The notes under the pieces were generated by a model. It worked only from the letters and a program-made list of their open reading frames with translations, did no database searches and had not been told where the DNA came from. Of a DNA stretch of 64,000 nt, positions 19,638-36,132 are shown one piece after another. The position numbers and the translations under genes are program-made. How positions within the stretch are numbered: the first letter of the stretch is position 1; each line of letters begins with the position of its first letter. This DNA comes from Sphingobium yanoikuyae (GTDB taxonomy: Bacteria; Pseudomonadota; Alphaproteobacteria; Sphingomonadales; Sphingomonadaceae), in the NCBI RefSeq assembly GCF_013001025.1, contig NZ_CP053021.1, positions 1,364,001 through 1,428,000 on the forward strand, in the 5' to 3' direction.

Positions 19638-20722
19638 CAGGCAGCAACCTTGACCGGGGTCGGGCGGGCGCGTCCGCCGCGTTGCAGCCATTTGATGATC
19701 TTGTGGCCCGGCAGCTCGATCAGGCGATAGCTGGCCCAGCAGAGCAGCCAGGTCGCGATCAGCATGGCGGCGATGAAGACCCAGTCATGGCCGACAAAGC
19801 CATGGCGATGGGCGATCCCCATGACGCGGGCCATGATGTCGCGCACCAGCGGATGCCACAGATAGATGGAGTAGCTGATCAGGCCCAGATGATAGCTGAC
19901 CGGGTTGGCCATCACCGCGCGGGCGGCGGCGCCATCATAATAGCAGGTGAGGACCAGCGCGGGCATCAGGCACACGACCAGCACATCGGCGGCTCGGGGC
20001 AGCATCAGGGCGACAGCGATGATGACACATATGGCGGCAAATCGGCCGGGGCCGGCGAGAAGGTTGCGGGTCAGCGCCATGTCGCGGATGCGATAGGTCA
20101 GGACGCCCAGGGCAAAGCCGGCAAGGCAGCGCAGCAGCGTCAGCACTGTGTCATAATCGTTGACGTCCAGCGGACCGCTGGCGCCGCGTCCGGAACTGGC
20201 GACCAGCACCAGAATGCCGACGCACAGCGCCAGTTGCGCCCAGGCCCAGCGGGAAAAGGCCATGATCGCGATCAGCGGGTAGAGGAGATAGGCGGCGACC
20301 TCCGTGCTGACCGACCAGCTGTTGCCGGCGATCGGCTGGGTGCCCCATCCCCAGCTCTGGATCATCAGCAGGTTGGTGAGGATATTGGGCAGGTCGAGCG
20401 GGATCGCCTGTGTCCCCGACACATTGACCAGGATGCGGGCCATGAACACCAGCGTCACGATCAGGTGCAGCGGCCAGACGCGGGCGGTGCGGTTGATCAG
20501 GAAGTCCATGTAACTGGACCGCCCCAGATTGTGCATCAGCCGGTCATAATAGCCGTAGGAAATGACGAAGCCGCTGAGAATGAAGAAAAGATCGACCGCC
20601 AGATAGGCGCGCGAGAAAAGCGGGATCGCGAAAGCCTGAAAGGCTGGCGCATGGGGAATATGGTAGAGCAGGACCGAAACGGCGGCGATGCCGCGCAGGC
20701 CCGTGAGCGAGGAAATTCTCAT
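19637..20722 (-). CDS. acyltransferase 3 family membrane protein
   Basis: A 361-aa inner-membrane O-acyltransferase (Acyl_transf_3, OafA/GumF-like) with about 10 spans. It probably adds acetyl or another acyl group to a sugar of the EPS. Signature: MRISSLTGLRGIAAVSVLLYHI, with the conserved Arg and His, then FILSGFVISYGYY. The ATG overlaps the GH10 stop by four bases (ATGA); the longer open frame upstream is arginine-rich out-of-family sequence. Its own stop overlaps the next GT2 start (TGATG). Confidence 0.9.
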   Translation of the reverse strand: MRISSLTGLRGIAAVSVLLYHIPHAPAFQAFAIPLFSRAYLAVDLFFILSGFVISYGYYDRLMHNLGRSSYMDFLINRTARVWPLHLIVTLVFMARILVNVSGTQAIPLDLPNILTNLLMIQSWGWGTQPIAGNSWSVSTEVAAYLLYPLIAIMAFSRWAWAQLALCVGILVLVASSGRGASGPLDVNDYDTVLTLLRCLAGFALGVLTYRIRDMALTRNLLAGPGRFAAICVIIAVALMLPRAADVLVVCLMPALVLTCYYDGAAARAVMANPVSYHLGLISYSIYLWHPLVRDIMARVMGIAHRHGFVGHDWVFIAAMLIATWLLCWASYRLIELPGHKIIKWLQRGGRARPTPVKVAA

Positions 20723-21840
20723 GCGGCATGTCTCCCGGCCGGCGGCGCGTCGTCGAAGGCGGCGGCGATGGCGTCCCACAGCGGCTTGCGGCGCAGGGAA
20801 CCGTCCAGCGGCAATCCGCGCGACAGCTGGCCGTCGGGCCATTTATAATCCTTGTAGTTGGACAGCCAGGAATAGCGGTCCGACAGGCCCCAGCAGAGCA
20901 CGGCCTGCATTGCCGGATTGTCCAGCGCGACATCGATGAAGGCCCGGCCGACACTGGCAACTTCGCTGTCACGTTTGGCCGGGTTGGGTGGGCCGCCAAT
21001 GTCGGCAATGTCGAACTCGGTAATCTCCAGCTTCAGGCCATAGCCGCGCAACTGGTCGAGGAAATCGGCGAAGCGGCGCTCGTCGAACCCCTCCTTATAG
21101 GGTTTGAGATGACCCTGGATGCCGATCGCGTCGATCGGCACATCGCGCGCTTTAAGCCGGTCGAGCAGCTTCAGCATCGCGGTCCGGCGGCGCTCGCAGC
21201 GGGGCGAGTCATGTTCGATGCCATAATCGGTCAGGAACAGGGTCGCCCTGGGATCGGTCTCGCGCGCGGTGTGGAACGCGATGTCGATATAATGTTCGCC
21301 GAGCGCCTGCATCCACATGCTGTCGGCGCGCATCCCGTCGGCGCGGCCGTCATTGGGTTCCAGCGCCTCGTTCACCACGTCCCATTCCTGGATGCGCCCG
21401 GCATAGCGTGGCATGGCGGTGGTGATATAGCTCGTCATCAGGGTCTGGCGCTGGCGGTCGCTGGCGGCCTTCAGCGCGGGCTCCAGCCATTTGGGCTGGG
21501 CGGCATACCAGACCAGCGCATGGCCGCGTGCGCGCATGTCATGCTTCTGGGCGAAATCGATGATCTGGTCGGCACCGCTGAAATCATATTGGCCCGGCTT
21601 GGGCTCGGTCGTGCCGCGCTTCAGTTCATATTCCTGCACCAGGATATTGCATTCTTGCGCCACCGCCTGGGTGAAGCCGGCATCCTCGCGCAACTGGCGC
21701 GACTTGACCGCCGCGCCGAAATAGCGGCCCTTGGCACGGGCATGGGTGGCGAGGCCGGGCGGCATGGCGGCCGCCGCAACGCCAGCAGGCAGCGTCGCCG
21801 CCAGCGCCATGCCACCGGCCAGAAATTCGCGACGCTTCAC
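20719..21840 (-). CDS. Tat-exported glycoside hydrolase family 10 (endo-xylanase-like)
   Basis: A 373-aa GH10 (beta/alpha)8-barrel enzyme; the family cleaves internal beta-1,4 linkages in xylan. Acid/base Glu158 lies in EWDVVNEAL and nucleophile Glu275 in LEITEFDI. The N-terminus VKRREFLAGGMALAATLPAG is a twin-arginine signal, so the folded enzyme goes to the periplasm. I choose a GTG start at 21840. It overlaps the preceding stop (GTGA) and has GGGAGG 8 nt upstream; an ATG 14 codons earlier lacks both. A xylanase-like enzyme inside a Wzy-type EPS gene chain suggests it edits or degrades the nascent polymer, not plant xylan. That is inference. Confidence 0.9.
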   Translation of the reverse strand: MKRREFLAGGMALAATLPAGVAAAAMPPGLATHARAKGRYFGAAVKSRQLREDAGFTQAVAQECNILVQEYELKRGTTEPKPGQYDFSGADQIIDFAQKHDMRARGHALVWYAAQPKWLEPALKAASDRQRQTLMTSYITTAMPRYAGRIQEWDVVNEALEPNDGRADGMRADSMWMQALGEHYIDIAFHTARETDPRATLFLTDYGIEHDSPRCERRRTAMLKLLDRLKARDVPIDAIGIQGHLKPYKEGFDERRFADFLDQLRGYGLKLEITEFDIADIGGPPNPAKRDSEVASVGRAFIDVALDNPAMQAVLCWGLSDRYSWLSNYKDYKWPDGQLSRGLPLDGSLRRKPLWDAIAAAFDDAPPAGRHAA

Positions 21841-22802
21841 AGGCGCGGCCTCCCGCCCACCATCTGGGCCATGTCGATCCATCGGTCGGAAATCCGGCGA
21901 TAGACCGGGTCGGGTAGGATGATCTGCATCAGCACGGTGGCGGCCAGTCGAGGACCGAAGGCGCCGCGCAGAACGGCGCCGACATAATAGCGCATCGCCT
22001 GAAACCGGCTGGTCGGCCAGATGCTCTTGGCCGCATGCCAGCCCATATAGGCGGAAAAGGCACGGGCTGAGATATGGGGGCGCAGGTCGCGCAGCCAGAT
22101 GAGGCTGCCGACGCTGCCGCGCACCGCCGACAGCCGATGTTCGGCATCGCGGTCGGCCCAGATCGTGCCGGGCCGCGCGGTCATCTGGAACTGGCCGCCG
22201 GCCAGCGCCAGGCGAACGGCAAAGTCGGTATCGTCACCGAACTTCACATCCTCGCGATAGCGGACCTTGTTGGCGAGGCCGCGACTGAGCGCCAGGCTGC
22301 TGGTCTGGATGAAGCCGCGATCGCACATGAGATAGCGGTCGATCGTCTCGCCGGTCGCGATCGCGCGCGGGGGCTTCAGGAAATTGCGGCCCTGGCCGCG
22401 ATCGACCAGCACCTGGCCATAGGCGACCACATTCTCGTGCTGTTGCAGCAGGGGCAGCAGGTCGGCGAGATGATGGGGCAGGAAGCGGTCATCGCAGTCG
22501 AGAAAGGCGATATAGCGCCCGCGCGCCTGCGCGATCCCGGTGTTGCGCGCGGCCGATGCGCCGCGATTGGGCTGGACGATGACACGCAGGCGCGGGTCTG
22601 CGATCCCGGCCAGCACCTGTTCGGTGTCGTCGGTCGACCCGTCGATCACGACGATCACCTCGATCAGCGCGATCGTCTGGTCGAGCGCGGACAGGACCGC
22701 GTCGACCACCTTGTCGCGGCGCTGATAGGTCGGGATGACCACGGAAAAGAGCGGCGAGGCGGCCTGTTCCTGCAGCGCGGACGGAGGTTGCCAGGCCGCC
22801 AT
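21837..22802 (-). CDS. family 2 glycosyltransferase
   Basis: A 321-aa GT2 enzyme of the EPS chain. N-terminal GT-A domain: LFSVVIPTYQRRDKVVDAVL, DGSTDDTEQVL, NRGASAARNTGI, and the DXD-type site FLDCDDRFLPHH. A C-terminal region (about 215-321) rich in Trp/Arg probably packs on the membrane. The ATG at 22802 shares a base with the preceding stop (TGATG); a GTG one codon earlier is possible. It is the paralogue of the next gene upstream (22802-23743), with matching blocks along the whole catalytic domain. Confidence 0.88.
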   Translation of the reverse strand: MAAWQPPSALQEQAASPLFSVVIPTYQRRDKVVDAVLSALDQTIALIEVIVVIDGSTDDTEQVLAGIADPRLRVIVQPNRGASAARNTGIAQARGRYIAFLDCDDRFLPHHLADLLPLLQQHENVVAYGQVLVDRGQGRNFLKPPRAIATGETIDRYLMCDRGFIQTSSLALSRGLANKVRYREDVKFGDDTDFAVRLALAGGQFQMTARPGTIWADRDAEHRLSAVRGSVGSLIWLRDLRPHISARAFSAYMGWHAAKSIWPTSRFQAMRYYVGAVLRGAFGPRLAATVLMQIILPDPVYRRISDRWIDMAQMVGGRPRL

Positions 22803-23743: not shown

Positions 23744-24669
23744 GCGCCATGGACCTTTCGATACTCTTCATAATGGACGCCGGTGAGGCCGGCGATTTTG
23801 CCCGCGGCGCGATAGAGCTTGCCGAGGCGCTCCACCCGCTTGCCGCGGTCCAATGTGGTGAGGGGGCCGACCGCGCCGACCAGGAAGCCGACCGCGATGC
23901 GGGGGCTTTCGCTGAGCGCCGCACGAAGGGCGCCGCCATGGGTGCGGGCGACGATCATGTCGGTCATGCCGACGCGATAGCCGCGCATCAGCAGCCATTT
24001 GGCGGTAACCCGGCTGGCCGGGATGAGTTCAGTGACCAGCGCTTCCTCCGACCAGGCGAAGCGGAAACCGGCGCGCTGCATCCGGGTGAAGAGCTGCTTG
24101 TCCGACCCGCCGGTGAGCGCCATGCGCTCGTCGAACGGGCGGGCGCCGATGCGGCGCAATGCGTTGGCGGACATCAGCACGTTGGCGGTGCTGTCGACCA
24201 GCGAGACCGGGCCGGACTTGTCGCGCCGCTTGGGCTGGAGCAGCGGATGACGCGAGGCCCAGGCGGGCAGCGGGCTGTCCATCTCGCGCAGCACCGCGCC
24301 GCCGACGACATCGGCGTCCCAGCGATCGGCGGCCGTCACCAGCGCGTCGATCCATCCGGGGCAGGCGGCCTCGTCATCGTCCATCATCGCCACATGGGTG
24401 ACGCCGGGCCGGGCAAGCGCCGCCTCGACCAGCGCATTGCGGACCAGGGGAATGCCACGTTCGCGCACCAGCAGCGCCTCGATCGGCCAGCGATAGCCCG
24501 ACGTCGCCAGCGCCTCCACCACGGCCAGCCCCTGCTGCTCCCTGGCGTCATTGTCGGCGACCAGCACATCGATCCGGTGCCGGGTTTCGAGCGCGGCGAG
24601 CGAGGCAAGCGTGCGCCGCAGCCCCTGGGGGCGATTGCAGGTCGCGATGCAGATGACGACATTAGCCAT
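23740..24669 (-). CDS. family 2 glycosyltransferase
   Basis: A 309-aa GT2 enzyme. Marks: VVICIATCNRPQGLRRTL, VLVADNDAREQQG and the acidic site AMMDDDEAACPGWIDAL. The C-terminal 70 residues include a hydrophobic stretch (IAVGFLVGAVGPL). It resembles the GT2 at 18702-19637 more than the two genes between them. Its start lies 8 nt inside the end of the polymerase gene. Its last four bases overlap the next GT2 gene. Confidence 0.88.
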   Translation of the reverse strand: MANVVICIATCNRPQGLRRTLASLAALETRHRIDVLVADNDAREQQGLAVVEALATSGYRWPIEALLVRERGIPLVRNALVEAALARPGVTHVAMMDDDEAACPGWIDALVTAADRWDADVVGGAVLREMDSPLPAWASRHPLLQPKRRDKSGPVSLVDSTANVLMSANALRRIGARPFDERMALTGGSDKQLFTRMQRAGFRFAWSEEALVTELIPASRVTAKWLLMRGYRVGMTDMIVARTHGGALRAALSESPRIAVGFLVGAVGPLTTLDRGKRVERLGKLYRAAGKIAGLTGVHYEEYRKVHGA

Positions 24670-26044
24670 GGGTAGCCTCCGGGCGGGCGAGAAAACGGCG
24701 GCGCCACTGCGGAAGCGGGCGCGCCTTGTAGGTGGCGTGGGCGGCGGCGATGGCCGCCAGGAAGATCACCCAGACCTGCCGATCCTTGTCGAAGAACGAG
24801 GTTTCCAGCAGATTCTGGTAAAGAACGAAGACCCAGATCGCGAAGCAGGGCACCATGATCGGCCGGTTCTGCGGCGTCGCCCCAGTCAGGAACCAGATGG
24901 CAGGCAGCGCCAGGAAGGTGAGCAGCAACATGATGAGGCCCAGCGGTCCGGTGGTCACCAGGATTTCCAGATAGCCATTATGCGAATGGGCGGTCAGGGT
25001 CTGAAACGCCTGGTTGAGATAATCGAGCGAGGGGCTGCGATCGCCGACCTGCCAGAAGCCGCCGAAACCCGCACCCAGGAAGGGGTGATCCTTGAGATAG
25101 GCAAGGTCGACTTCCCAGATGGACACGCGGCCGGTGAAGGAGGTGGGGTCGGCGAAGATCCGCTCCACCACCGGCTGGAAAGCGACATAGAGCCACAGCA
25201 CCCCGACCATGCCGAGCGCGACCATGATCAGCAGTACCGCCCGTTTCTGGGTGGAATCGCTCAATGCCCGATAGACGGCGCAGACGCCCAGGATGGCGAA
25301 GGACAAGGCGAGCGAGGTCTTGCTCTTGGTCCCGATCACGAAAACGAAGGCCATTACCGAGAAGAGGGCATAATACCATTTCTTGGTATCGACCCAGGCA
25401 TTGGCCGCGACCATGAAGGTCAACGCCATAACCGCGCCGGCAATATTCTTGTGGAAGAAGAAGCCGCGCCAGGCGCCGATCAGCGCCTTGTCGCTCTCGG
25501 TCGGCGGATGGACCGCCGCCGAGGTCAAGGGCAGCGAGACCCAGCAGATGATGAGGGACAGGATCAGGGCGTAGCGCAGTGCCTGGAGCAGCCTTTCGGG
25601 CCCGATCAGGCTGAGCGCGCTGAAGGTGATGTAGATCACGATCAGCTGCTGCATCGCCCGCTTGAACGATACGAACGGATCGACGCCCCAACTGCAGGTG
25701 ATGAAGAACCAGGCAAGCATGACGGCCAACGGCCAGAGCGTGAAGCGATAGCGTGGCGGATAGCGGCGGATCAGCTGCACGCCGGTCAGCAGCATCGCAA
25801 AGCCGATGAACAGCGCCTGCTTGAACAGGTCCGATCCGTTATTTTCCTGCGCCATGGCGACCAGTTCATCCTGGGTGCGCGAGGCGAAAGGCTGCTGGCC
25901 GATGAAGACCAGCATCAGGAAGGTGAAATAGAAGATCTGGGCGACAAGGGTTAGCCGGGCGCTTTCGGTCTTCTTGATGGCGGCGACGCCCGGCCGGGTC
26001 AGGACCGGCGCGGGAATGTCACGATGCCAGGGGGTGCTTGCCAT
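24662..26044 (-). CDS. Wzy-type O-antigen/EPS polymerase (O-antigen ligase family)
   Basis: A 460-aa inner-membrane protein with about 11-12 spans of the O-antigen ligase/Wzy_C superfamily. In a locus with Wzx, Wza and a Wzc-like protein it is best read as the polymerase that joins lipid-linked repeat units at the periplasmic face. The large periplasmic loop carries the family motif FTGRVSIWEVDLAYLKDHP, then FLGAGFGGFW and HSHNGYLEILVTTGPLG, with conserved Arg and His. It lies 3 nt after Wzx, the only positive spacing in this part of the chain. Confidence 0.88.
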   Translation of the reverse strand: MASTPWHRDIPAPVLTRPGVAAIKKTESARLTLVAQIFYFTFLMLVFIGQQPFASRTQDELVAMAQENNGSDLFKQALFIGFAMLLTGVQLIRRYPPRYRFTLWPLAVMLAWFFITCSWGVDPFVSFKRAMQQLIVIYITFSALSLIGPERLLQALRYALILSLIICWVSLPLTSAAVHPPTESDKALIGAWRGFFFHKNIAGAVMALTFMVAANAWVDTKKWYYALFSVMAFVFVIGTKSKTSLALSFAILGVCAVYRALSDSTQKRAVLLIMVALGMVGVLWLYVAFQPVVERIFADPTSFTGRVSIWEVDLAYLKDHPFLGAGFGGFWQVGDRSPSLDYLNQAFQTLTAHSHNGYLEILVTTGPLGLIMLLLTFLALPAIWFLTGATPQNRPIMVPCFAIWVFVLYQNLLETSFFDKDRQVWVIFLAAIAAAHATYKARPLPQWRRRFLARPEATHG

Positions 26045-26047
26045 CGC

Positions 26048-27322
26048 TCAACCCTCCGCTTGGATGCGGCGCCAGCTGCGGTCGAGCTGCCAGATGCCGA
26101 GCATCATGACGAGCTGCGACAGCACGACGCCGGCGATCGAGAAGACGGGCGCGACCAGCAGGGTGAGCAGCGTAACGGCGGCAATGCCGACGCCGCAGCT
26201 GCGCAGGCTCTGGGCTGCGAGCGGACGGAAGGCCTTGCGTGCCTGGGTCATGACGCTCATCGGCGTCTGCACGCACTGGACCAGCGAGAGCAGGGCGCAG
26301 AGCGCCACGGCAGTGATCACCAGCTGATGGTCGAGCGTGGGCTTGAGGATCAGGCCGGGGAAGAAATAGAGCGCGCCGGCCGCGACGACGCAGGTGCCGA
26401 GCCACAGGAAGACAAGGGCGCCCATGAAGATGCGTTCCGACTGGATCGCGGCCTGATGATCGCCGCGCGCGACGGCACGGGTCATGCGCGGGCGTTCCAG
26501 CTGAGTGAGGGCGGTGATGCAGACATTGACCGGGCGGAAAAACAGCATGCCAACGGCGATCGGCGCGAAGGCGGTCGGCCCCGCGAGCAGGGTCACGGCA
26601 TAGCTGTGCGCGTTCGACGTCGCCTCGGTCGACAGCACGCCGACCAGGGTCCAGGCCGACTGTTCCTTCCACACCGGGCGATAGGCGCGCAGGGCGGCCA
26701 GCGGCGACATGGCGACATGGCGGCGCAGATAGGGACTGCCGAAGGGCAGCAGGCCAGCGAGGCTCGCGGCGACGAGCATGGTGCCGATGCCGGTCAGGTC
26801 CGCGCCGGTGCGCATCGCGACCAGCAGGCCGATGAGGATGGTCGCGGCATAGGCGATGTCGGATCGGGCCGCCTGCATCGGCGCATGATGGGCATAGGCG
26901 TTGGACCGGCCGAACCAGCGGATCAGCGACAATGTGCCAGCGAGGCCGAAGACCAGGGCGGCCTGCGGCGAGGCGGTGGTCCAGGCGATGGCGGCGCAGA
27001 TCATCCCCTGGCTGAGTGACAGCAGCAGGTTGACCGGGAAGAAGAAGCCATGCGCCGCGCGATCGACATCCTCGCCCTGATTGACGGCGATCGTATAGGG
27101 TGTCGACACCAGCGCGTTGGACAGGCTGTAGCCGAACTGGATGATGACCAGCAGGAAGGCGAGCACGCCGATGCCGGTGGTGGCGAGATGGTGGATCGAG
27201 AAGAGCTGGACCAGCAGATGGCTGACCGAGACGATCGCCGAGGAGAAGCTGGCGAGGCCGAAGCGGCCGAAGATGGTGCCCAGGCGCTGGGTACGGCCGG
27301 AAGCCGCCTGCGCCTCAGCCAT
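26048..27322 (-). CDS. Wzx/GumJ-like polysaccharide flippase
   Basis: A 424-aa membrane protein with about 12 spans of the MATE/polysaccharide-transporter superfamily. It would flip undecaprenyl-PP-linked repeat units across the inner membrane. Sequence is diverged, as usual for Wzx; support comes from topology, length, and position between WecG-like and Wzy genes. Features include FGLASFSSAIVSVSHLLVQLF in the first span and an LERPRMTRAVARGD cytoplasmic loop. Its start overlaps the WecG-like gene by 8 nt. Confidence 0.82.
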   Translation of the reverse strand: MAEAQAASGRTQRLGTIFGRFGLASFSSAIVSVSHLLVQLFSIHHLATTGIGVLAFLLVIIQFGYSLSNALVSTPYTIAVNQGEDVDRAAHGFFFPVNLLLSLSQGMICAAIAWTTASPQAALVFGLAGTLSLIRWFGRSNAYAHHAPMQAARSDIAYAATILIGLLVAMRTGADLTGIGTMLVAASLAGLLPFGSPYLRRHVAMSPLAALRAYRPVWKEQSAWTLVGVLSTEATSNAHSYAVTLLAGPTAFAPIAVGMLFFRPVNVCITALTQLERPRMTRAVARGDHQAAIQSERIFMGALVFLWLGTCVVAAGALYFFPGLILKPTLDHQLVITAVALCALLSLVQCVQTPMSVMTQARKAFRPLAAQSLRSCGVGIAAVTLLTLLVAPVFSIAGVVLSQLVMMLGIWQLDRSWRRIQAEG

Positions 27323-28121
27323 GGCGGTGCTTCCAGATCAGCCACAGGGCATGGGGATTGGTGGTGATATAGCGCCAGGCCAGTTCCTTGGGCCGGGTAC
27401 CCATGCGGTGCAGCCATTCCAGGCCATTGCGCTGCATCCACATCGGCGCGCGCGGATAATCGCCGGTGATATAGTTGAACAGGCCGCCGCAGGTGACGAT
27501 CCAGCCGGCCTTGATCCGGTCGCGATTGCGCACGCAAAAGGCCTGCTCGCGCGGCTTGCCGGTGCCGACCCACAGGACGTCGGGCGCGGCCGCATTGATC
27601 GCGTCGATCACCGCATCCTCTTCCTCGGGCTTCCAGAAGCCGTTGCGGCGCCCCGCGACGGTGAGGCCCGGTGCCATCTCGACGATCCGATCGGCGCAGG
27701 CGGCGTTCACCTTTTCCTCGCCGCCGAGCAGATAGTAGCTGACCCCCGCCTTCGCTGCGGGCACCAGGCTGTCGATGAACATGTCGGTGGTGCTCGACCG
27801 ATCGGCGATCGGCGGCTGGCCGACCCAGCGCGACGCGGCGACGACGATCTGGCCATCGGCATGGATCAGGTCCGCCTGGGCCAGATTGTCGCGAAACCCC
27901 TTGTCCGTGGCGTTCATCGACAGGCCCTGACCATTGCAGTCGAAGATCAGCAGCGGGCGCTGGTCGAGCGCGCGGCGCAGCGGCGCCTCGCCCAGCATCC
28001 GGTCGATCAGCGCGTCGAGCGACAGGGTCGACACCGGAATGCCGCCGACCAGGGCGATCTCCTCCGGCGTGGACACGGGCTGTTGCAGCGGCTGACGGGG
28101 AATGGCCTGCTCCAGGCTCAT
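27315..28121 (-). CDS. WecG/TagA/CpsF (GumM-like) glycosyltransferase
   Basis: A 268-aa GT26 enzyme that adds a sugar to a polyprenyl-PP-linked acceptor. Family marks: FDCNGQGLSMNATDKGFRD, then LIHADGQIVVAASRWVG, YYLLGGEEKVNAA, and VLWVGTGKPREQAFC, with ITCGGLFNYITG-like sequence near 215. It has no membrane span but a basic C-terminus, fitting peripheral membrane binding. It probably acts early in repeat assembly, as GumM does in xanthan. Coupled by ATGA to the EpsG-like gene. Confidence 0.9.
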   Translation of the reverse strand: MSLEQAIPRQPLQQPVSTPEEIALVGGIPVSTLSLDALIDRMLGEAPLRRALDQRPLLIFDCNGQGLSMNATDKGFRDNLAQADLIHADGQIVVAASRWVGQPPIADRSSTTDMFIDSLVPAAKAGVSYYLLGGEEKVNAACADRIVEMAPGLTVAGRRNGFWKPEEEDAVIDAINAAAPDVLWVGTGKPREQAFCVRNRDRIKAGWIVTCGGLFNYITGDYPRAPMWMQRNGLEWLHRMGTRPKELAWRYITTNPHALWLIWKHRHG

Positions 28122-29023
28122 GCGATCACGCTCCCTGCGATGCTGATATTATGACGGTCCAGATCGTCGATCACGCGGCGCATGTCGGCGATCGCGGTCT
28201 CGCCACGCCGGGCGACAATGGTGACGGCATCGAAGCCCGCGAGGATGGAGCCGAATGGCGTCTGCTCGCCGCGCCGCTGGGCGAGGTAGAAGAGCATCGA
28301 CGTGTCGTGCAGGCCCCAGCCGGCGGCGGTGTCCGCCAGCGGTCCCTTGGTCACCAGGCTGGATGCGCTGCCCGATGCCCGGCCGGCGGTCATCAGCCAC
28401 AGGCCATCGACCGCCGTGCGCGCGGCGGGCAGCAGCGCGGCGCTGCCAAGCAATTGTTCGGCCAGGCCCGCCTTGTTGGCGACGCGGAACAGCCGATCGA
28501 GCGAGGGACGGTCGATATCGACATCGACCAGCATCGTCTGCCCGTCCATCTGTGCCATCACGACGGCCAGATTGGCGGCAAGGATCGCTGCCTCGTCACC
28601 CGCGTCGATCGACAGGATGGCAAGGCGCAGGGCTGCGCCGTCGCTGTCCTTTGCCGCCGCGCGCATCTTGGCGCGGATGGTGCGGACCTTGGCGGCATAG
28701 GCATCCGCGGGGTCGAAGGCGCTGACCACAAGCGGATCGACGCGCTGGTCGCCGGCCGCCAGCAGCGGGAAGCCGCCCTGCATGGCGAGGATGATGCCCG
28801 CCGTTTCGGGATCGAGCAGGCCAAGGTCGATCGCCGCCTGCTGGAAGGGCTGGCCGGCGGCATGGCCATGGGCTTCGATCCGGCCGATGTCGGTTTCGGC
28901 GAGGAAGCCATGTTCGACCGCGAGCTGCGCGAAATCCTTGGTGTCGCGGGCGCGGGGTTTGAGGCCGGTCGTGGCGCCGGCGGTCAGATGGGGATGGGCA
29001 CTAGCCGTGGAACGCAGTCTCAT
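28118..29023 (-). CDS. EpsG-like BY-kinase homologue with degenerate P-loop
   Basis: A 301-aa protein collinear with EpsG-type chain-length-determinant tyrosine kinases. The N-terminal part (about 28-90) has two MshEN-like repeats (FAQLAVEHGFLAETDIGRI and FQQAAIDLGLLDPETAGII). The middle and C-terminal part is a MinD/BY-kinase fold. The Walker A' strand is preserved (TMLVDVDIDRPSLDRLF), but where Walker A should read G-x-G-E-G-[KR]-S the sequence is SIDAGDEAAILAANLA, with no Lys/Arg-Ser/Thr. No tyrosine cluster is present at the C-terminus. It is therefore probably not an active kinase. It is coupled on both sides by ATGA, to the EpsF-like co-polymerase and to WecG, so it is still maintained as part of the export complex. 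Confidence 0.8.
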   Translation of the reverse strand: MRLRSTASAHPHLTAGATTGLKPRARDTKDFAQLAVEHGFLAETDIGRIEAHGHAAGQPFQQAAIDLGLLDPETAGIILAMQGGFPLLAAGDQRVDPLVVSAFDPADAYAAKVRTIRAKMRAAAKDSDGAALRLAILSIDAGDEAAILAANLAVVMAQMDGQTMLVDVDIDRPSLDRLFRVANKAGLAEQLLGSAALLPAARTAVDGLWLMTAGRASGSASSLVTKGPLADTAAGWGLHDTSMLFYLAQRRGEQTPFGSILAGFDAVTIVARRGETAIADMRRVIDDLDRHNISIAGSVIA

Positions 29024-30375
29024 GCGGCCTCCTGTCGCTTGGGGAGCCAGCCGCCCCGTGCGGGGGCAGGCAGCAATTCGGTGATGACTTCGACCTCGGT
29101 CGCTCGGGCCACGCCGGCGGCGGAGCGGACGCGGGGCTGGGCGATTTCGATCAGGACGACCGCCGCAATGCCGCCGACCAGGCCAAGGGCGATGCCGCCC
29201 ACCAGCCAGAGCAGCAGGTTCGGCTTGGCGGGTAGCAGCGGCACGGTCGCCTCGTCGAGCAGGCTGGCATTGGGCTGCGAGATCTGGCTCTTGAGCGCCG
29301 CTTCGTTGAAGCGCTGGCGCACCGTGTCATAGGTCTGGCGGGCCGCATCGACGTCGCGCTGCATGACCATCAGCTGGTCCTGCACGTCGGACATGCGGAT
29401 CATGCGGTCTTCCTGCGAGGCCATGTTCGACTTGAGGTCGCCCTCGCGGCGGCTGGCGGCGACGCTGTTGGCGCTGACGGCACCGGCCTGGCTGGCGCGG
29501 GCGGCGCCAAGCTTGGTCTGGAGTTCGGACAATTGCGCCGAGGCGGCGGCCATGGTCGGATGGTTCGGACCAAGCGTCTTGCCCAGTTCCTGCACCTTGG
29601 CCGATTGGGCAGCGACCTGTTCCTGCAAATTCTGGACGATCAGCGACCCTTCGATGTCCGATACCGAACCGGCGCCGGCCTTGCCGCGCGCGGCGGCGGC
29701 TTCGGCCTGGGCTTGGGTCAGCTGATAGGACATGTTCTTCAGCTTCTCGGCCTCAAGATCCATGCGGTTGATGCCGATGATGTCATGGGCGCGCTGGAAG
29801 TCGGACAGGCGCTTCTGCGCATCCTCATAGCGGCGGCGCACGTCGGCGGTCTGTTCGTTGAACCATTTGGCCGAGGTGCGTGCCGGCGAGGCGCGCAGTT
29901 CCACCTGCTCGCGCATGTAGATCTGTGCGGCGAGGTTGGCGACGCGGGCGGCGACCTGCGGATCGGGATCGAGATACTGGATTTGCAGCACGTTGCTCTG
30001 GCGGCCGGTTGTGACCAGCAGCCCGGCGCGCACGCGCGCGGCGGCCTGTTGCAGGCGGGCATCGGCTGGCATGTCCGCGGGCAGCGCGTCGATGAAGCCC
30101 GCTTCCTTGGCGACCGCATTGATCACCTTGGCACTGCGGATGATGTCGGTCTGGGTGCCCAGGATCGAGTCCACCTCGACCCGGCCCTGATTCTGGGTCG
30201 TGTCGGTCGGATCGGTCTGTGACAGGTCCAGCATCAGCGAGGTCGTCGCCATATATTGGCGCGACTGCATGAAGGCCGCGACCGCGATCAGCAGGAACAG
30301 GGCGCCGCCGATCATCGCGGCGACCCGCCAGCGCGCCTTGACGGCGGCGGCAAGGTCCAGGGGGTTCATCGTCAT
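29020..30375 (-). CDS. EpsF/Wzc-like chain-length determinant (polysaccharide co-polymerase)
   Basis: A 451-aa inner-membrane co-polymerase (Wzz domain plus GNVR region) that sets chain length and links Wzy to the Wza channel. First span at about 18-36 and second at about 390-412 (LLLWLVGGIALGLVGGIAAVV). Between them is a long periplasmic coiled coil (about 170-370) rich in Ala/Gln/Glu. Sequence resembles EpsF of the EpsEFG system. The cytoplasmic tail of about 40 residues has no kinase domain; the partner would be the EpsG-like protein encoded next (ATGA overlap). Confidence 0.88.
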   Translation of the reverse strand: MTMNPLDLAAAVKARWRVAAMIGGALFLLIAVAAFMQSRQYMATTSLMLDLSQTDPTDTTQNQGRVEVDSILGTQTDIIRSAKVINAVAKEAGFIDALPADMPADARLQQAAARVRAGLLVTTGRQSNVLQIQYLDPDPQVAARVANLAAQIYMREQVELRASPARTSAKWFNEQTADVRRRYEDAQKRLSDFQRAHDIIGINRMDLEAEKLKNMSYQLTQAQAEAAAARGKAGAGSVSDIEGSLIVQNLQEQVAAQSAKVQELGKTLGPNHPTMAAASAQLSELQTKLGAARASQAGAVSANSVAASRREGDLKSNMASQEDRMIRMSDVQDQLMVMQRDVDAARQTYDTVRQRFNEAALKSQISQPNASLLDEATVPLLPAKPNLLLWLVGGIALGLVGGIAAVVLIEIAQPRVRSAAGVARATEVEVITELLPAPARGGWLPKRQEAA

Positions 30376-31793
30376 AGTCCGTCCACTCCTCGGAGCATGG
30401 CGCGCATTTCCTCGGCCGGCGTCGGCGCGACCGTGCGCGGCGCGGGCTGCTTGGCCATCAGCAGCAGGAATTGCGGCGCCAGCGTATCTTCAAACATCCA
30501 CAATTCACCGCCCGGCGTGGGCGTAAGGGCTGGCTGCAACCGGGCCAGCGCATCGCTGGCATCGGCCTCCATGCCCGGATATTCGCCCAATATGTCGCTG
30601 CCGACGCGCAGCAGCCGCTCCAGCGAAATTGCCGACATCTGCGATGCGACGATGCCGGCCAGCGCGATCATCCGGCGCCCGGATGCGCTGTCACGCAGGG
30701 CGCGGGTGAACAGGCCATGGCTGGCGCTGCTCATTTCCGCCCAGTCGTCCAGCGCGCTGGCCAGCCCCTGTTCGACATCGCTGGCGGTCACCTGCTCGCG
30801 GCCGCCGGCCTCGGTCACAAGCGCCGCCTGCATGCCGAACAGCCGGGCATGATAGGGCGATCCCATTGCTGCGCCGGCCAGCGCCTCGACGGCTTCCGGC
30901 GTGATCGACAGTCCGGCCTTCTCGCCGCAGCTTGCCAGCAGCAGTTCCAGTTCGGGGCGGGCGATCGGGCTGACCCGCTGGGGCGCGATATGGCGGCGAA
31001 GCGAGGGATGGGCGGCGATCAGGCCGTCGACATCGCCGGCGATGCCGACCAGCACCACCTGCACCGGCGAATGGATATCGGTCAGTAGCTTGAGCAGCGT
31101 TGCGACATCCTGCTTGGCGGTGTCGGAGCGGACCCGGTCATATTCGTCGAGGATCAGGATGGAGCGCTGGCGCACCTCCTCGACCAGCAGGGTGGCAAGG
31201 CCATTCACGTCCAGCGGACCGGTGGCGAGCTTGCGGGCCCGTTCCTGGCCCGCGCCGCTCATCGGCAGTTCGGTCAGGAAGGGGCGGAACAATGAGTCGA
31301 AATCGGCCTCGCCGCTCGCCGACCCATAGAGAGCAACGCAGCCCGCCTCGTCTGCCAGATCGCCGAAGACGCGCGCAAGCGAGGTCTTGCCCGATCCGCG
31401 CGTGCCGAAGATGATCGCATGCTTGCGCTGGACCACGATCGCCTCGACCAGCTTTTCCAACTCGTTGTTGCGGCCTGCCAGGCCATGGCGGTCGGTCACC
31501 GGCATGGCGGTGTTGAACGCGCTGTAGATCGAATCCCGGCGCAGGCTGATGGGCTTGAGCGGCGTTGCCATCGCGCCCATCGCCAGCGGTCGCGGGGTGT
31601 CGTCGGGCGCCGGTTCGGGCTCTGCCGTCCGGTGGAAGCTCGGTGCGACCGGTTCCTCCAGCAGCAACGGAGCCTGATCGGGGATGACACGGGCGGAGGG
31701 GCTGGACCCGCCGGCCAGTCGGCGCGGCAGGGACCAGAGCCAGTCGAGCGTGCCCGCCGAGCGGGCGCCGAAATCATGTTCCATCGCGGTCAA
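30372..31793 (-). CDS. AAA-type ATPase of the EPS export locus
   Basis: A 473-aa cytoplasmic ATPase (AAA_16/Orc1-like). A proline-rich N-terminal region (about 1-95) precedes the NTPase domain. Walker A is IIFGTRGSGKTSLARV and Walker B is SILILDEYDRV; an arginine-rich sensor region lies near HPSLRRHIAP. A helical C-terminal domain (about 330-473) follows. It is related in type to the ExeA-like ATPases seen in some EPS clusters. Start choice: the frame opens with TTG at 31793, which overlaps the wza stop (TTGA) and has GGGAG 8 nt before it. An ATG three codons later has no ribosome site. It may power or gate the complex whose kinase-like member has lost its P-loop. Confidence 0.8.
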   Translation of the reverse strand: MTAMEHDFGARSAGTLDWLWSLPRRLAGGSSPSARVIPDQAPLLLEEPVAPSFHRTAEPEPAPDDTPRPLAMGAMATPLKPISLRRDSIYSAFNTAMPVTDRHGLAGRNNELEKLVEAIVVQRKHAIIFGTRGSGKTSLARVFGDLADEAGCVALYGSASGEADFDSLFRPFLTELPMSGAGQERARKLATGPLDVNGLATLLVEEVRQRSILILDEYDRVRSDTAKQDVATLLKLLTDIHSPVQVVLVGIAGDVDGLIAAHPSLRRHIAPQRVSPIARPELELLLASCGEKAGLSITPEAVEALAGAAMGSPYHARLFGMQAALVTEAGGREQVTASDVEQGLASALDDWAEMSSASHGLFTRALRDSASGRRMIALAGIVASQMSAISLERLLRVGSDILGEYPGMEADASDALARLQPALTPTPGGELWMFEDTLAPQFLLLMAKQPAPRTVAPTPAEEMRAMLRGVDGL

Positions 31794-32638
31794 AACAGCT
31801 TCTCCCGGATGATGAGGACGTCTTCGGGCTTCACCGGATCATCCAGCTTGGCCTGGACCTCCTGGCCGCCGCGCTTCACCTTGATGCTGCGGGTCGAACC
31901 GGCGAGGGTCGGACCACCGGCCAGGGCAAGCGCCTGGCGGAAGGTCTGGCCCGCGACATAGGAGAAGGCGCCGGGTTGCTGGACCTGGCCATAGACATAG
32001 ACCTTCTCGGCCGGCGGCACGAACAGGATGTCGCCGGCCTGGAGCGGCCGTCCGGCGCCCGCGCTCATGTCGGTGAGCGAGATGCGCACGGCGCCGCTGC
32101 CATCGGCGGGGGTCAGGATGACGGCATTGGCGCCGGCCGTGGTCGCGCCGCCAGCCTTGGCCAGCATCGACGCCACGGTATAGTTGCGGTCGAGCGGATA
32201 ATTGCCGGCCTGGGGCACATTGCCCAGCACCGTGACCGAGCGACTGACATAGTCGCTGACCTCGACGCTGACCGAGGGTTTGGTCAGATAGCCGCCACCG
32301 GCATAGCTCGCCGCGATGTCGGACGCGAGCTGGGACGTGGTCTTGCCCTTCGCGTCCACCGGCCCGACCAGCGCGAGCAGCACCGTGCCATCGGCCTTGA
32401 TCCGGGTTTCGGTCGACAGGTCGGGCTGGCCGAAGATCGAGATCTTCAGCTGATCGTCCGGACCGAGCAGATAGCCGGCGGGGGCAGACGCCGCCGGCCG
32501 CGCGGGCGTGGCGGCAACCGCCGCGGCTGCGGCGGCACCGGCAGGCGCCTGTGCCGTTTGGGTTTGGGCCGACAATGAGGTCGGCACCGCCAGCAGGGGG
32601 AGGGCGGCAAGGATATGGAAGCGTGTCGCTATTCTCAT
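31790..32638 (-). CDS. Wza/GumB-type polysaccharide export protein
   Basis: A 282-aa periplasmic/outer-membrane export protein. Signal peptide at 1-24 (ends SLSAQ), an Ala/Pro-rich linker (about 25-55), then the Poly_export domain (YLLGPDDQLKISIFGQPDLS) and two SLBB-like repeats (SVTVLGNVPQAGNYPLD and VYVYGQVQQPGAFSYVAG). No lipobox cysteine is visible, unlike E. coli Wza. It forms the channel with the EpsF-like co-polymerase. GGGAGC lies before the ATG. It is 19 nt downstream of the outer-membrane barrel gene. Confidence 0.92.
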   Translation of the reverse strand: MRIATRFHILAALPLLAVPTSLSAQTQTAQAPAGAAAAAAVAATPARPAASAPAGYLLGPDDQLKISIFGQPDLSTETRIKADGTVLLALVGPVDAKGKTTSQLASDIAASYAGGGYLTKPSVSVEVSDYVSRSVTVLGNVPQAGNYPLDRNYTVASMLAKAGGATTAGANAVILTPADGSGAVRISLTDMSAGAGRPLQAGDILFVPPAEKVYVYGQVQQPGAFSYVAGQTFRQALALAGGPTLAGSTRSIKVKRGGQEVQAKLDDPVKPEDVLIIREKLF

Positions 32639-32657: not shown

Positions 32658-33905
32658 TCAAAAGCGCAGCAGGGCTGAGAGCGTCACCTGCGTGCCGCTA
32701 TAGTTGGAGACATCGGTGTCGGTACGGCGGCGGTAATGCTGGGCGTCGAGGCTGAGGTCGAAGCGATCGGTCAGCTTGCGCTTGAGCGTCGCGCCGAACT
32801 GGCGATTACGGTCCGCCTCGATCGAGAAGGGGCGTAGCGCCGCATCCTGCCGGAACTTGCGCCTCTGCCAGTCGGCATAAAGGCCGGCCGAAGTCAGCTC
32901 GCTGATCGCGAACTCCCCCTCGATCCGATAACTGGAACGGATCGCGAAGCCGCTAGCGATCAGGCTGTCATTCATGATGTCGCGGGCGGTGGAGGCGGTC
33001 AGCTTCACGCGCGGGATGATGCTGGTCGACAGCCGCACATCCCAGCCCATGCCATTATAGTTGCCGACGGCAGCGGAATCGCTGCTGACATCCAGCCATT
33101 GCAGGTCGGCGTCGACCTGGGTGATCGGCGTCACCGACCGCTGGAAGCGCAGGCCATAGGCGTTGATGCGGTTCTTGATGCCCAGCGTGCGCCGGTCGCT
33201 GACCGTCCGCTCATAATAAGTGGTGAGCGTGCCGAAGCTAGGCTTGTTATAGCCCAGGCCGACCTTGAAGCTGTCGCTGTCCTGGTCGGCATAGTCGAAA
33301 TCGTCGGCATTGCGCGTCGTGTCATGCTGGTAACCGGCGACCGGGAAGAAGCCTGGCCGCTCGCACGACAGGTCGGCCCCCAGCGTGGAGAAGCGCTGGA
33401 GATTTTCGGTCGCGGCGTTGATGTCGCCATAATCGGCGCGCTGCTGGCGATAGCTGGCGCGCGGCGTGATGCCGCAGGTCGCTCCGAATCGAATCGTCGC
33501 CCTGGCCTCCGCATCGAGTCGCAGCTTGCTGCGCTGGGTCTCCGACACGAACTGGTCATAGCCGGCCTTGGCCCGGATCTGGATGTCGTGTCGCCCGATC
33601 GGATGGGCATAGGTCGCCTCGATCGAGGGTGTAACGATCAGGTCGCCGGTGGGGTCTTCGACCCGGTCGTCGACGCGATAGACATTGTCATCATAGAGAA
33701 GATCGAGCCCGGCCGTCAGGTGCAGGCCGAGCGTATCTATGCGCTTGTCATCATCTTGGGCCTGCGCCGTGGAGGGCAGGCCGGCGAACAGCATTGCGCC
33801 GCCAAGAGCGGCCATGGCGGCCGCATGCGGCCATGCAAAATCATTTGCTGCGGGCGCACAGAGGCGCGCCCGCAAACACGGGTTATGGGCATTATCCAAA
33901 CGCAT
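32658..33905 (-). CDS. EpsL-like outer-membrane beta-barrel protein
   Basis: A 415-aa exported protein, first gene of the EPS chain. A long N-region leads to a hydrophobic signal segment (about 27-50, ending AQAQD). The rest is alternating aromatic/polar strands of an outer-membrane barrel ending in the classical C-terminal Phe (TLSALLRF). Length and layout match EpsL/BBP2-type barrels of EPS operons (GumC-GumB-plus-barrel loci). It probably forms or completes the exit pore. MRLDNAHNPC is the annotated start; a downstream Met at about residue 31 would shorten the signal. Confidence 0.82.
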   Translation of the reverse strand: MRLDNAHNPCLRARLCAPAANDFAWPHAAAMAALGGAMLFAGLPSTAQAQDDDKRIDTLGLHLTAGLDLLYDDNVYRVDDRVEDPTGDLIVTPSIEATYAHPIGRHDIQIRAKAGYDQFVSETQRSKLRLDAEARATIRFGATCGITPRASYRQQRADYGDINAATENLQRFSTLGADLSCERPGFFPVAGYQHDTTRNADDFDYADQDSDSFKVGLGYNKPSFGTLTTYYERTVSDRRTLGIKNRINAYGLRFQRSVTPITQVDADLQWLDVSSDSAAVGNYNGMGWDVRLSTSIIPRVKLTASTARDIMNDSLIASGFAIRSSYRIEGEFAISELTSAGLYADWQRRKFRQDAALRPFSIEADRNRQFGATLKRKLTDRFDLSLDAQHYRRRTDTDVSNYSGTQVTLSALLRF

Positions 33906-34454: not shown

Positions 34455-35846
34455 TCAATAGGCGTTGCGGTGAACCAACACGCGGGCCGTGCCGACCAGG
34501 ATGCCGATGTCGCGCATCAGGCTCCAGCCGTGCAGATATTCCAGATCCGCCTCGACCCGGTTCAGAATGTCGCGCCGGGTTTCGGTCGCGCCGCGGAAGC
34601 CGCGGATCTGGGCCAGGCCGGTGATGCCGGGCTTGAGCGCATGGCGATGCCAATATTGACGGTCGACCTGCCAGAACAGCTGGTCTTCGGCGGTCGAGCC
34701 CAGCGCATGGGGGCGCGGGCCGACCAGGCTCATCTCGCCGAGCAGCACGTTGAGCAGCTGGGGCAGCTCGTCGATGCTGGTGCTGCGGATGAAGCGGCCG
34801 ACGCGGGTGATGCGGTTATCGTCGCGCTGGGTCGAGGTGGCGCCGGCGGTGTCGCACTGTTCCACCCGCATGCTGCGGAACTTGAGGATGTGGAACAGGC
34901 GGTTGCCGCGGCCGATCCGTTCCTGGCGGAAGAAGACCGGGCCCGGCGAGTCCAGCCGGATGGCGACGGCCACCGCGATCATCAGCGGCGCCAGCGCGAT
35001 CAGCACCGGCACGGTCAGGATGATGTCGAGCAGCCGCTTCTTGGCGCGATTGGCAAGGTTGAGCGGACCGCGGGCGACCACCAGCGTCGACACGCCGCGA
35101 TGGCTCTGCACCGCGAGCGGCGCCATCGGGTCGAGTTCCGGCACGATGATCTCGCCCAGGATATTGCCGCCCTTGAGCATCTGCGCCCAGTCGGCCTTGC
35201 GCTCCAGCGGGCAGGAAATGACCACGCGATCGAAATCGCGCAGCAGCATGCCAAGGCGATGCAGCATATAGGGATCGTCCAGATCGGCGCGCAGGCCGAG
35301 CGTCGGTGCGTCCACGATCGTCATGCCGTTCACATCGTCGGGGATCAGGCCGTCGTCGATGATCAGCAGCTGGGCGAACAGGCCTTCGGCGAAATGGCGA
35401 CGAACGGCGCGGACGACCAGCACCCGCTGCATCACGATCAGCGCGCCGCTGAAGAACAGGCCAGTGCTGATGCCCAGGCGCGAGAAATTGTCGGTGACCT
35501 TCAGCGAGAAGACGACCAGCAGGAAGATCAGCAGGGTTCCGGCGAAGGCCATTACTGCACTGCGGCATGACGCCGTCATGCTGGTCAGGCAGCGCGGGTT
35601 GTAGGCCTGGTTGTGAAAGGCGATGGTGCCATAGACCAATATCCCGCCGGCGAGCGGTTGCCAGACCTCCATCGACAGGATTGGAATACCCGCCACGCGC
35701 AGGCCGATGACGAACCCTGCGGCCAGGGCCATCATGTCTGCAAGCAGCAGAACCAGGCTCAGCCACAGGCGCGCGTTCCGCTGGAAAGCGGCGGTGGCGG
35801 GCTGGCGACTGGGGGTTCCTGCAATCGCCAGATCTATTTTGGACAT
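34455..35846 (-). CDS. polyprenyl glycosylphosphotransferase (GumD/WcaJ/SpsB-like priming enzyme)
   Basis: A 463-aa inner-membrane enzyme that transfers a sugar-1-phosphate to undecaprenyl phosphate, the first step of repeat-unit assembly. Order: four spans (about 25-135), a CoA-binding-like Rossmann region (about 140-255), a membrane-dipping helix (LLDIILTVPVLIALAPLMI) and the bacterial sugar-transferase domain (DSPGPVFFRQERIGRG, FHILKFRSM, TSIDELPQLLNVLLGEMSLVGPRP, KPGITGLAQIRGFRG). The ATG at 35846 has AAAGGG 6 nt upstream; an in-frame TTG two codons earlier is less likely. It is a separate transcript from the main EPS chain. Confidence 0.95.
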   Translation of the reverse strand: MSKIDLAIAGTPSRQPATAAFQRNARLWLSLVLLLADMMALAAGFVIGLRVAGIPILSMEVWQPLAGGILVYGTIAFHNQAYNPRCLTSMTASCRSAVMAFAGTLLIFLLVVFSLKVTDNFSRLGISTGLFFSGALIVMQRVLVVRAVRRHFAEGLFAQLLIIDDGLIPDDVNGMTIVDAPTLGLRADLDDPYMLHRLGMLLRDFDRVVISCPLERKADWAQMLKGGNILGEIIVPELDPMAPLAVQSHRGVSTLVVARGPLNLANRAKKRLLDIILTVPVLIALAPLMIAVAVAIRLDSPGPVFFRQERIGRGNRLFHILKFRSMRVEQCDTAGATSTQRDDNRITRVGRFIRSTSIDELPQLLNVLLGEMSLVGPRPHALGSTAEDQLFWQVDRQYWHRHALKPGITGLAQIRGFRGATETRRDILNRVEADLEYLHGWSLMRDIGILVGTARVLVHRNAY

Positions 35847-36132
35847 CGGCAACCCTTTAAATGCGTCGTGACGTCATGGTCCGCCCGCCCGTCGTCAGAC
35901 GGTGGCGATCTTTCCCCAGGACATCCGCTGCCTTTGATTTATGTTGCGTAGCAGCAGGACATAGTTGCTCGGTTGTTACAATTGGGGGAGGGATATTCGG
36001 ACGCACATTTCCGACGATCCGTTGAGCGCGCATTTTTCATCCTGCCGCCCCTTCGTTCTGTCGCAGGGAAAATCGATCAGGCGCGGTGAGAGGCCTTGTC
36101 GGCCTGATGGAAACGACGTCGAATCAAATCGC
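35847..36132. other. gene-free leader of the priming transferase gene
   Basis: A 286-nt region without a credible gene. It should hold the promoter and leader of the priming transferase. A perfect 8-bp palindrome TGACGTCA lies at 35869-35876, about 25 nt before that start. Nothing else stands out. Confidence 0.4.

Follow-up and report, generated by a model that had tools for sequence, protein, structure and literature searches.

A stand-alone EpsG-like protein beside a polysaccharide co-polymerase of Sphingobium yanoikuyae is probably a bacterial tyrosine pseudokinase

In catalytic bacterial tyrosine (BY) kinases, ATP and a Tyr tail serve to cycle the octamer of the polysaccharide co-polymerase (PCP) (PMC12004946). 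The same study proposes PCPs with a dead kinase, namely EcpK/EpsV and HfsB/HfsA, as a third PCP-2 subfamily; a PCP-binding scaffold has been demonstrated for the former pair and argued for the latter. Here, we analyzed a protein of 301 amino acids (aa) encoded in a 64,000-nucleotide stretch of Sphingobium yanoikuyae contig NZ_CP053021.1 (positions 1,364,001 to 1,428,000; hereafter the window). The protein is probably a BY pseudokinase of the EpsG family, which would keep the kinase fold without catalysis and serve as a cytoplasmic scaffold under the PCP. The computed support comprises the fold, the absence of Walker A and Walker B residues from 80 orthologue rows, the missing Tyr tail in 23 named loci, purifying selection, and a fixed place beside an EpsF-like PCP, an outer-membrane polysaccharide export (OPX) protein, and an AAA ATPase. 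Pseudokinase/PCP pairs are already published, and priority for the points on EpsG and the AAA ATPase is not claimable; in the literature searched (titles and abstract openings, subscription papers being mostly outside), EpsG was nowhere called a pseudokinase and no link between a pseudokinase and an AAA ATPase was found.

The 301-aa protein has a BY-kinase fold, and its closest PDB sequence matches are the kinase domains of BceF, CapB, Etk, and Wzc. Its catalytic residues were followed in 80 orthologue rows, consisting of the first 82 (P0001–P0082) of 95 database homologues minus three fragments, plus the protein itself. In the loop SIDAGDEAAIL, which takes the place of the Walker A motif GxxxxGK[ST], neither the Lys, nor the Gly that precedes it, nor the Ser/Thr remains, and an acidic residue stands in for the Gly. 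The Lys position reads Ala in 72, Gly in 7, and Thr in 1 of the rows, with Lys or Arg in 0/80, and the flanking residues G142, D143, and E144 occur in 80, 75, and 79 rows, respectively. The Asp position of Walker B is replaced in every row (Y57, H11, F7, L3, S2). The Asp pair of the Walker A' strand MLVDVDIDRPS is kept, with D167 in 80/80 and D169 in 78/80 rows. A Tyr-rich tail was not found, as the final 25 residues of the protein contain no Tyr and none occurs among the last 22 in any of the 23 named loci; R282, R283, I285, D286, L288, and D289 at the C-terminus are each present in 80/80 rows. The RxxR helix, which we take to be the counterpart of the BY-kinase ExxRxxR oligomerization motif with the Glu lost, is likewise conserved, and in a 20-row alignment K112 was more than 90% conserved and R114 and R117 were invariant. 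The predicted model of the full protein had a mean pLDDT of 77 and was built from 20 sequences, so pocket geometry is not argued from it.

The same cluster occurs in the 23 named loci, which come from Sphingobium, Sphingomonas, and one record filed as Novosphingobium. When 16 genes of the window were compared over these loci, 15 were present in all 23 and the glycosyl hydrolase family 16 (GH16) gene in 22; in L054, four cluster genes are each split over two open reading frames. The median ratio of nonsynonymous to synonymous substitution rates (dN/dS) was 0.166 for the pseudokinase gene (16 copies from the clade of the 301-aa protein), and 0.152, 0.118, 0.189, and 0.227 for the PCP, OPX, WecG, and AAA genes, respectively. 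Together with the conservation over 80 rows, this indicates that the gene is maintained and that the loop was rebuilt rather than merely lost; a sequence error or a pseudogene is ruled out by the same results. An earlier note on this DNA had described a lost Walker A loop, a kept MinD-like A' strand, no C-terminal tyrosine cluster, and an intact gene tightly coupled to its neighbors. All of this holds, the coupling being visible as 4-base overlaps with the PCP gene on one side and the WecG/TagA gene on the other, and the sphingomonad orthologues, which it had proposed to check, share the loss. Its suggestion of a non-catalytic structural partner is the best reading, because the protein is conserved, under purifying selection, very likely non-catalytic, and adjoins a PCP without a kinase domain; as a new idea, it is preceded by EcpK/EpsV and HfsB/HfsA as treated in PMC12004946.

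The arrangement matches that of the bipartite PCP-2 pseudokinases EcpK and HfsB, a stand-alone fold without catalytic motifs or Tyr tail adjacent to a PCP-2 without a kinase domain. According to its published description in that study (PMC12004946), EcpK, paired with EpsV in Myxococcus xanthus, is likewise stand-alone, with a PCP-2 partner free of a kinase domain and with Walker A, Walker B, and the Tyr tail missing; in addition, EcpK has no A', which the 301-aa protein keeps, and its C-terminal helix is basic. The main text of that study holds no whole-word match for EpsG, c-di-GMP, AAA, or MshEN. HfsB, paired with HfsA in the Caulobacter holdfast system, is also stand-alone, has lost the Walker A Lys, and has a PCP without kinase. 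HfsB orthology of the 301-aa protein was ruled out by the tree, on which the HfsB-like L126 and L128 form a separate long branch; these have lost the Lys and kept the loop (GEGVS, GEGTS), show no AAA gene in the stretches read, and take their label from an HfsE-like gene scoring 608–624 bits, below the cut-off of 750. XrtA-type TIGR03018 loci (L129–L143) also place a stand-alone kinase beside a PCP, but 15/15 have a GK[ST] Walker A and one or more Tyr residues near the C-terminus, and these loci hold no AAA gene of the type found beside the 301-aa protein (best 18 bits, in L140). The catalytic BY-kinases Wzc and CapB share the fold, but their ATP site and Tyr tail are intact. Three stand-alone TIGR03018-like proteins outside the EpsG-like clade (L144, L145, and L148) have also lost the Walker A Lys (GAGTS, GCGGS, and GAGVT, respectively), and no AAA gene of that type was seen in the stretches read around them.

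The NCBIfam EpsG profile, TIGR03029, matches the 301-aa protein over nearly its whole length (positions 5–272 of 274) at 93.6 bits, which does not reach the curated cut-off of 313.8, and epsE/epsF-like neighbors are present. EpsG of methanolan-type EpsEFG systems has the same architecture, an MshEN-type N-domain and a BY-kinase fold, and the same kinds of partner, EpsE and EpsF. A phylum-wide search of 377 genomes with this profile gave 18 with E ≤ 1e-45; in the six best loci, which were read and five of which exceed the curated cut-off, the Walker A Lys is present in 0/6 (one has Arg) and the AAA gene in none. Among proteins, 4875 passed 1e-20, and the best 120 of these were analyzed, being the closest relatives rather than a random sample; some of them (P0096, P0100) were already part of the alignment used as the query. 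When these 120 are set against a canonical GEGKS kinase, the Lys position reads A79, V18, T14, G6, and S3, with Lys or Arg in 0/120, and Tyr is missing from the last 25 residues in 111/120. Arg at this position is kept in a few relatives, the sphingomonad L061, L064, and L078, and L171. Judged by these residues, the closest EpsG-family members annotated as kinases look equally dead. The earlier note had set the protein apart from Wzc and EpsG systems alike; it is indeed unlike Wzc, but the contrast with EpsG fails, because the closest 120 listed relatives lack the Walker A Lys as well. The differences lie elsewhere. In these EpsG proteins, the shape of the loop survives (GDGxS, GEGxS, or DDGx[SA] in most), and the A' strand and the majority of the MshEN key residues are retained. 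In the 301-aa protein, the loop is acidic (GDE), the Walker B Asp is missing, and the MshEN-type domain is eroded; an MRLRS start and an AAA neighbor also set it apart.

Several EpsG relatives match an MshE-type c-di-GMP domain in sequence. In the 301-aa protein, the MshEN-like repeats pointed out in the earlier note are present as two 24-residue halves with a 5-residue spacer, though most of the ligand residues (R, G, and Q of both halves) are gone. All 16 clade rows (the 15 named loci L033–L047 plus the 301-aa protein) have other residues in place of Gly 3 and Gln 24 of the first half and of Arg 1 and Gly 3 of the second, and 14/16 keep the second-half Gln. In 8/8 Sphingomonas loci (L048–L055), the MRLRST start leads into the kinase fold with no such domain in between; P0045, filed under Sphingomonas, retains an N-terminus of MshEN-domain length. 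Pfam MshEN gave no entry at E ≤ 1 in the 301-aa protein or in seven kinase-like relatives scanned, and the NCBIfam MshE-type profile NF053729 gave no match in the 301-aa protein. The domain was recognized instead by NCBIfam in relatives and by fold, and the NF053729 cut-off (38 bits) was exceeded by four distinct relatives (L170 = P0100, L172 = P0096, L073, and P0139). Among the best 120 of the 4875 EpsG relatives, first-half Gly 3 and Gln 24 are found in 120 and 114, and second-half Arg, Gly, and Gln in 120 each; the first-half Arg position is Arg in only 17 and Ser in 70, which counts against c-di-GMP binding by EpsG. Exopolysaccharide (EPS) biosynthesis in Methylobacillus is named among the functions of MshEN-containing proteins in the published account of MshEN (PMC5013675).

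The AAA gene sits between the OPX and PCP genes in 23/23 named loci, and GxxxxGK[ST] is intact in 61/61 AAA matches scanned (three from loci counted twice). The protein is not a member of the XrtA ATPase family TIGR03015, as its score was 17.5 bits compared to 324.5. When 199 family genomes were searched with the AAA protein only, 31 of them yielded homologues at E ≤ 1e-15, 34 in total; 30 of the 32 assessable ones have an EpsG-like/PCP locus no more than about 10 kb away, L179 and L180 lie elsewhere, and L175 and L178 are on contigs too short to place. One of these 30 has a broken kinase-like gene: at L176:10300, the EpsG-like gene beside the AAA/OPX/PCP set turns into unrelated sequence mid-protein, perhaps a misassembly near the contig end. 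We then consider 87 solo kinase/PCP loci, which were chosen by kinase matches and not at random, 23 of them being one orthologue set: the AAA gene is present in 0/20 loci with Walker A Lys (17) or Arg (3) versus 58/67 loci without (Fisher p 4e-13), and in 0/20 versus 37/46 when the orthologue set is reduced to two. Nine of the 67 lack a full AAA match, among them L108 and L080 at contig ends and L084 with a partial AAA gene at the region edge. On the tree, the AAA-bearing, Lys-less rows form essentially one block, with two independent pairs on supported branches (four on all); the sign test on independent pairs gave p 1, and the tree requires a minimum of 4 changes in the Lys and 5 in the AAA gene. 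Because of this single block, the two supported pairs, and the choice of loci by kinase matches, we make no causal claim from the AAA gene to the lysine loss.

As a mechanism, the pseudokinase would serve as a cytoplasmic scaffold packed against the underside of the PCP by way of its retained RxxR helix and conserved C-terminal face. It would help the PCP ring to assemble and to cooperate with Wzy and OPX, with no need for tyrosine phosphorylation. A cycle of the pseudokinase, if any, would be driven from outside. Relatives with an intact MshEN-type domain, such as EpsG, could use c-di-GMP; in the Sphingobium lineage, where that site is eroded, the companion AAA ATPase would be the likeliest source of nucleotide-driven change. 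Several points weigh against the scaffold. The PCP contact is suggested by gene order and by relatives; some nucleotide or metal use is possible, given the strong conservation of the A' Asp pair and of K112 (more than 90% in the 20-row alignment); and the AAA link comes essentially from one evolutionary block, so that its functional tie to the kinase loss would be an association only. We regard it as possible, though not favored, that the pseudokinase is an adaptor coupling the AAA ATPase to the PCP, with ATP hydrolysis by the AAA protein taking the place of the phosphorylation cycle by which the PCP ring opens and closes. The constant gene order (23/23), the intact P-loops (61/61), the vicinity of 30/32 homologues, and the 0/20 versus 58/67 distribution argue for such coupling, but it has to accommodate nine Lys-less solo loci and five Lys-less EpsG loci without a full AAA match, the stray homologues L179 and L180, and a set of loci picked by kinase matches, in which 23 of the 58 AAA-bearing loci are one orthologue set and the tree offers one block with two supported pairs.

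Residual catalysis is unlikely. Binding of ATP, or phosphorylation, by a non-canonical site might use the A' Asp pair (D167 80/80, D169 78/80) and a Lys or Arg of the neighboring subunit; in BY-kinase rings, the helix with the counterpart of K112, R114, and R117 meets the next subunit, and these residues are conserved. However, such a site would have to work with the Walker A Lys, Ser/Thr, and Gly replaced, with Tyr, His, Phe, Leu, or Ser in place of the Walker B Asp, and without a Tyr tail. We are more doubtful still that the protein remains a c-di-GMP receptor through its MshEN-type domain, since four ligand residues are replaced in all 16 clade rows and the domain is gone in all eight of L048–L055, despite the MshE-type fold, the four relatives above the NF053729 cut-off, and the second-half Gln. 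A functionless relic in the course of being lost might be suspected from the apparent loss of three inputs (ATP, Tyr tail, and c-di-GMP), but is very improbable given the median dN/dS of 0.166 and the nearly invariant N-terminal, P-loop-replacement, and C-terminal motifs.

The MRLRS start varies in DNA, with 15 different and partly synonymous 18-mers in 29 loci, and it is therefore held as a protein motif; the first base of codon 2 is additionally fixed by the ATGA overlap. The pattern [MV]R[LI]RS occurs in 40 of 104 compared rows, and Asp or Glu stands at the last Walker A Gly position in 37/40 MRLRS rows versus 0/64 others, the former being one clade. This acidic pattern, together with the Arg-in-acidic-pocket hook modeled for EcpK/EpsV in PMC12004946, makes an arginine plug testable. 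A broader conjecture, rather doubtful as a whole, extends the pseudokinase scaffold: the EpsG branch of PCP-2 would be phosphorylation-independent, EpsG would be a ring scaffold gated by c-di-GMP through its MshEN domain, and in Sphingomonadaceae this input would have eroded and a dedicated AAA ATPase would have taken over the nucleotide cycle. In the MRLRS clade, the empty P-loop would have turned into an acidic pocket, into which the two N-terminal arginines might fit as a plug, either within one subunit or from the adjacent one. If true, the curated family "chain length determinant protein tyrosine kinase EpsG" would largely not consist of kinases, phosphorylation-free PCP-2 systems would be commoner than the two studied pairs imply, and c-di-GMP and the AAA ATPase would be candidate substitutes for tyrosine phosphorylation in polymer-export control.

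The cluster is of the Wzx/Wzy type (Table 1), and its genes run in the order sugar transferase, EpsL-like barrel, EpsE-like OPX, AAA ATPase, EpsF-like PCP, pseudokinase, and WecG, followed by the probable flippase, the Wzy_C protein, three family-2 glycosyltransferases, GH10, an acyltransferase, and another family-2 glycosyltransferase, with GH16 on the opposite strand. The flippase candidate matched no Pfam or NCBIfam family above cut-off. No PF01451 tyrosine phosphatase, the sole phosphatase family sought, was found near the pseudokinase gene.

Table 1. Features of the pseudokinase gene and its cluster (positions in the window)
Feature	Position	Strand	Detail
EpsG-like stand-alone BY pseudokinase, 301 aa	28118..29023	-	
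N-terminal MRLRST motif	29006..29023	-	76/80 orthologue rows (MRLRST 73, MRLRSS 3); other four without such a start
MshEN-type domain (24+5+24 residues), residues 30-82	28778..28936	-	Most c-di-GMP ligand residues lost
RxxR helix (A111..R114..R117)	28673..28693	-	R114 79/80 (one gap), R117 80/80, A111 74/80
Former Walker A loop SIDAGDEAAIL, residues 138-148	28580..28612	-	Lys replaced by A145
Walker A' strand MLVDVDIDRPS, residues 164-174	28502..28534	-	
Former Walker B strand, residues 242-249	28277..28300	-	Asp position is Y246
C-terminus, residues 282-301 and stop	28118..28180	-	No Tyr tail
EpsF-like PCP-2 without kinase domain, probable partner	29020..30375	-	TIGR03017 270.5 bits (cut-off 422.75); GNVR domain
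AAA ATPase between OPX and PCP genes	30372..31793	-	P-loop GTRGSGKT intact
EpsE/Wza-like OPX export protein	31790..32638	-	TIGR03028 171.9 bits (cut-off 262.65); Poly_export, SLBB
EpsL-like outer membrane beta-barrel	32658..33905	-	TIGR03014 90.3 bits (cut-off 275); BBP2_2
Initiating polyprenyl-phosphate sugar transferase	34455..35852	-	Bac_transf; TIGR03025 302.7 bits, above cut-off 295.55
WecG/TagA glycosyltransferase	27315..28121	-	PF03808; TIGR00696 above cut-off
Probable Wzx-like flippase	26048..27322	-	Label from position and hydrophobic sequence
Wzy-like polymerase/ligase	24662..26044	-	PF04932 Wzy_C
GH10 glycosyl hydrolase, within EPS cluster	20719-21882	-	Present in 23/23 named loci
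GH16 glycosyl hydrolase, within EPS cluster	17323-18717	+	Present in 22/23 named loci

The source genome holds further systems of this kind. A single further AAA homologue was found there at E ≤ 1e-3, adjoining a second PCP and an MRLRS pseudokinase; this second operon (L067, G000:C1:1547471-1550718) comprises OPX, AAA, the EpsF-like PCP, and the MRLRS pseudokinase, which has the P-loop AIEASEQAAILTANI, no MshEN domain, and a Walker B-like Asp. At L129 (G000:C1:1133400) of the same genome, PCP and OPX genes adjoin the gene for a canonical kinase of the XrtA type, with GEGKT and an SYYG tail, and the genome also encodes one or more fused PCP-2a proteins of the Wzc-like kind (L068); live and dead kinase systems thus coexist in it. 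In the cluster of the 301-aa protein, GH10 and GH16 may hint at the linkage of the polymer.
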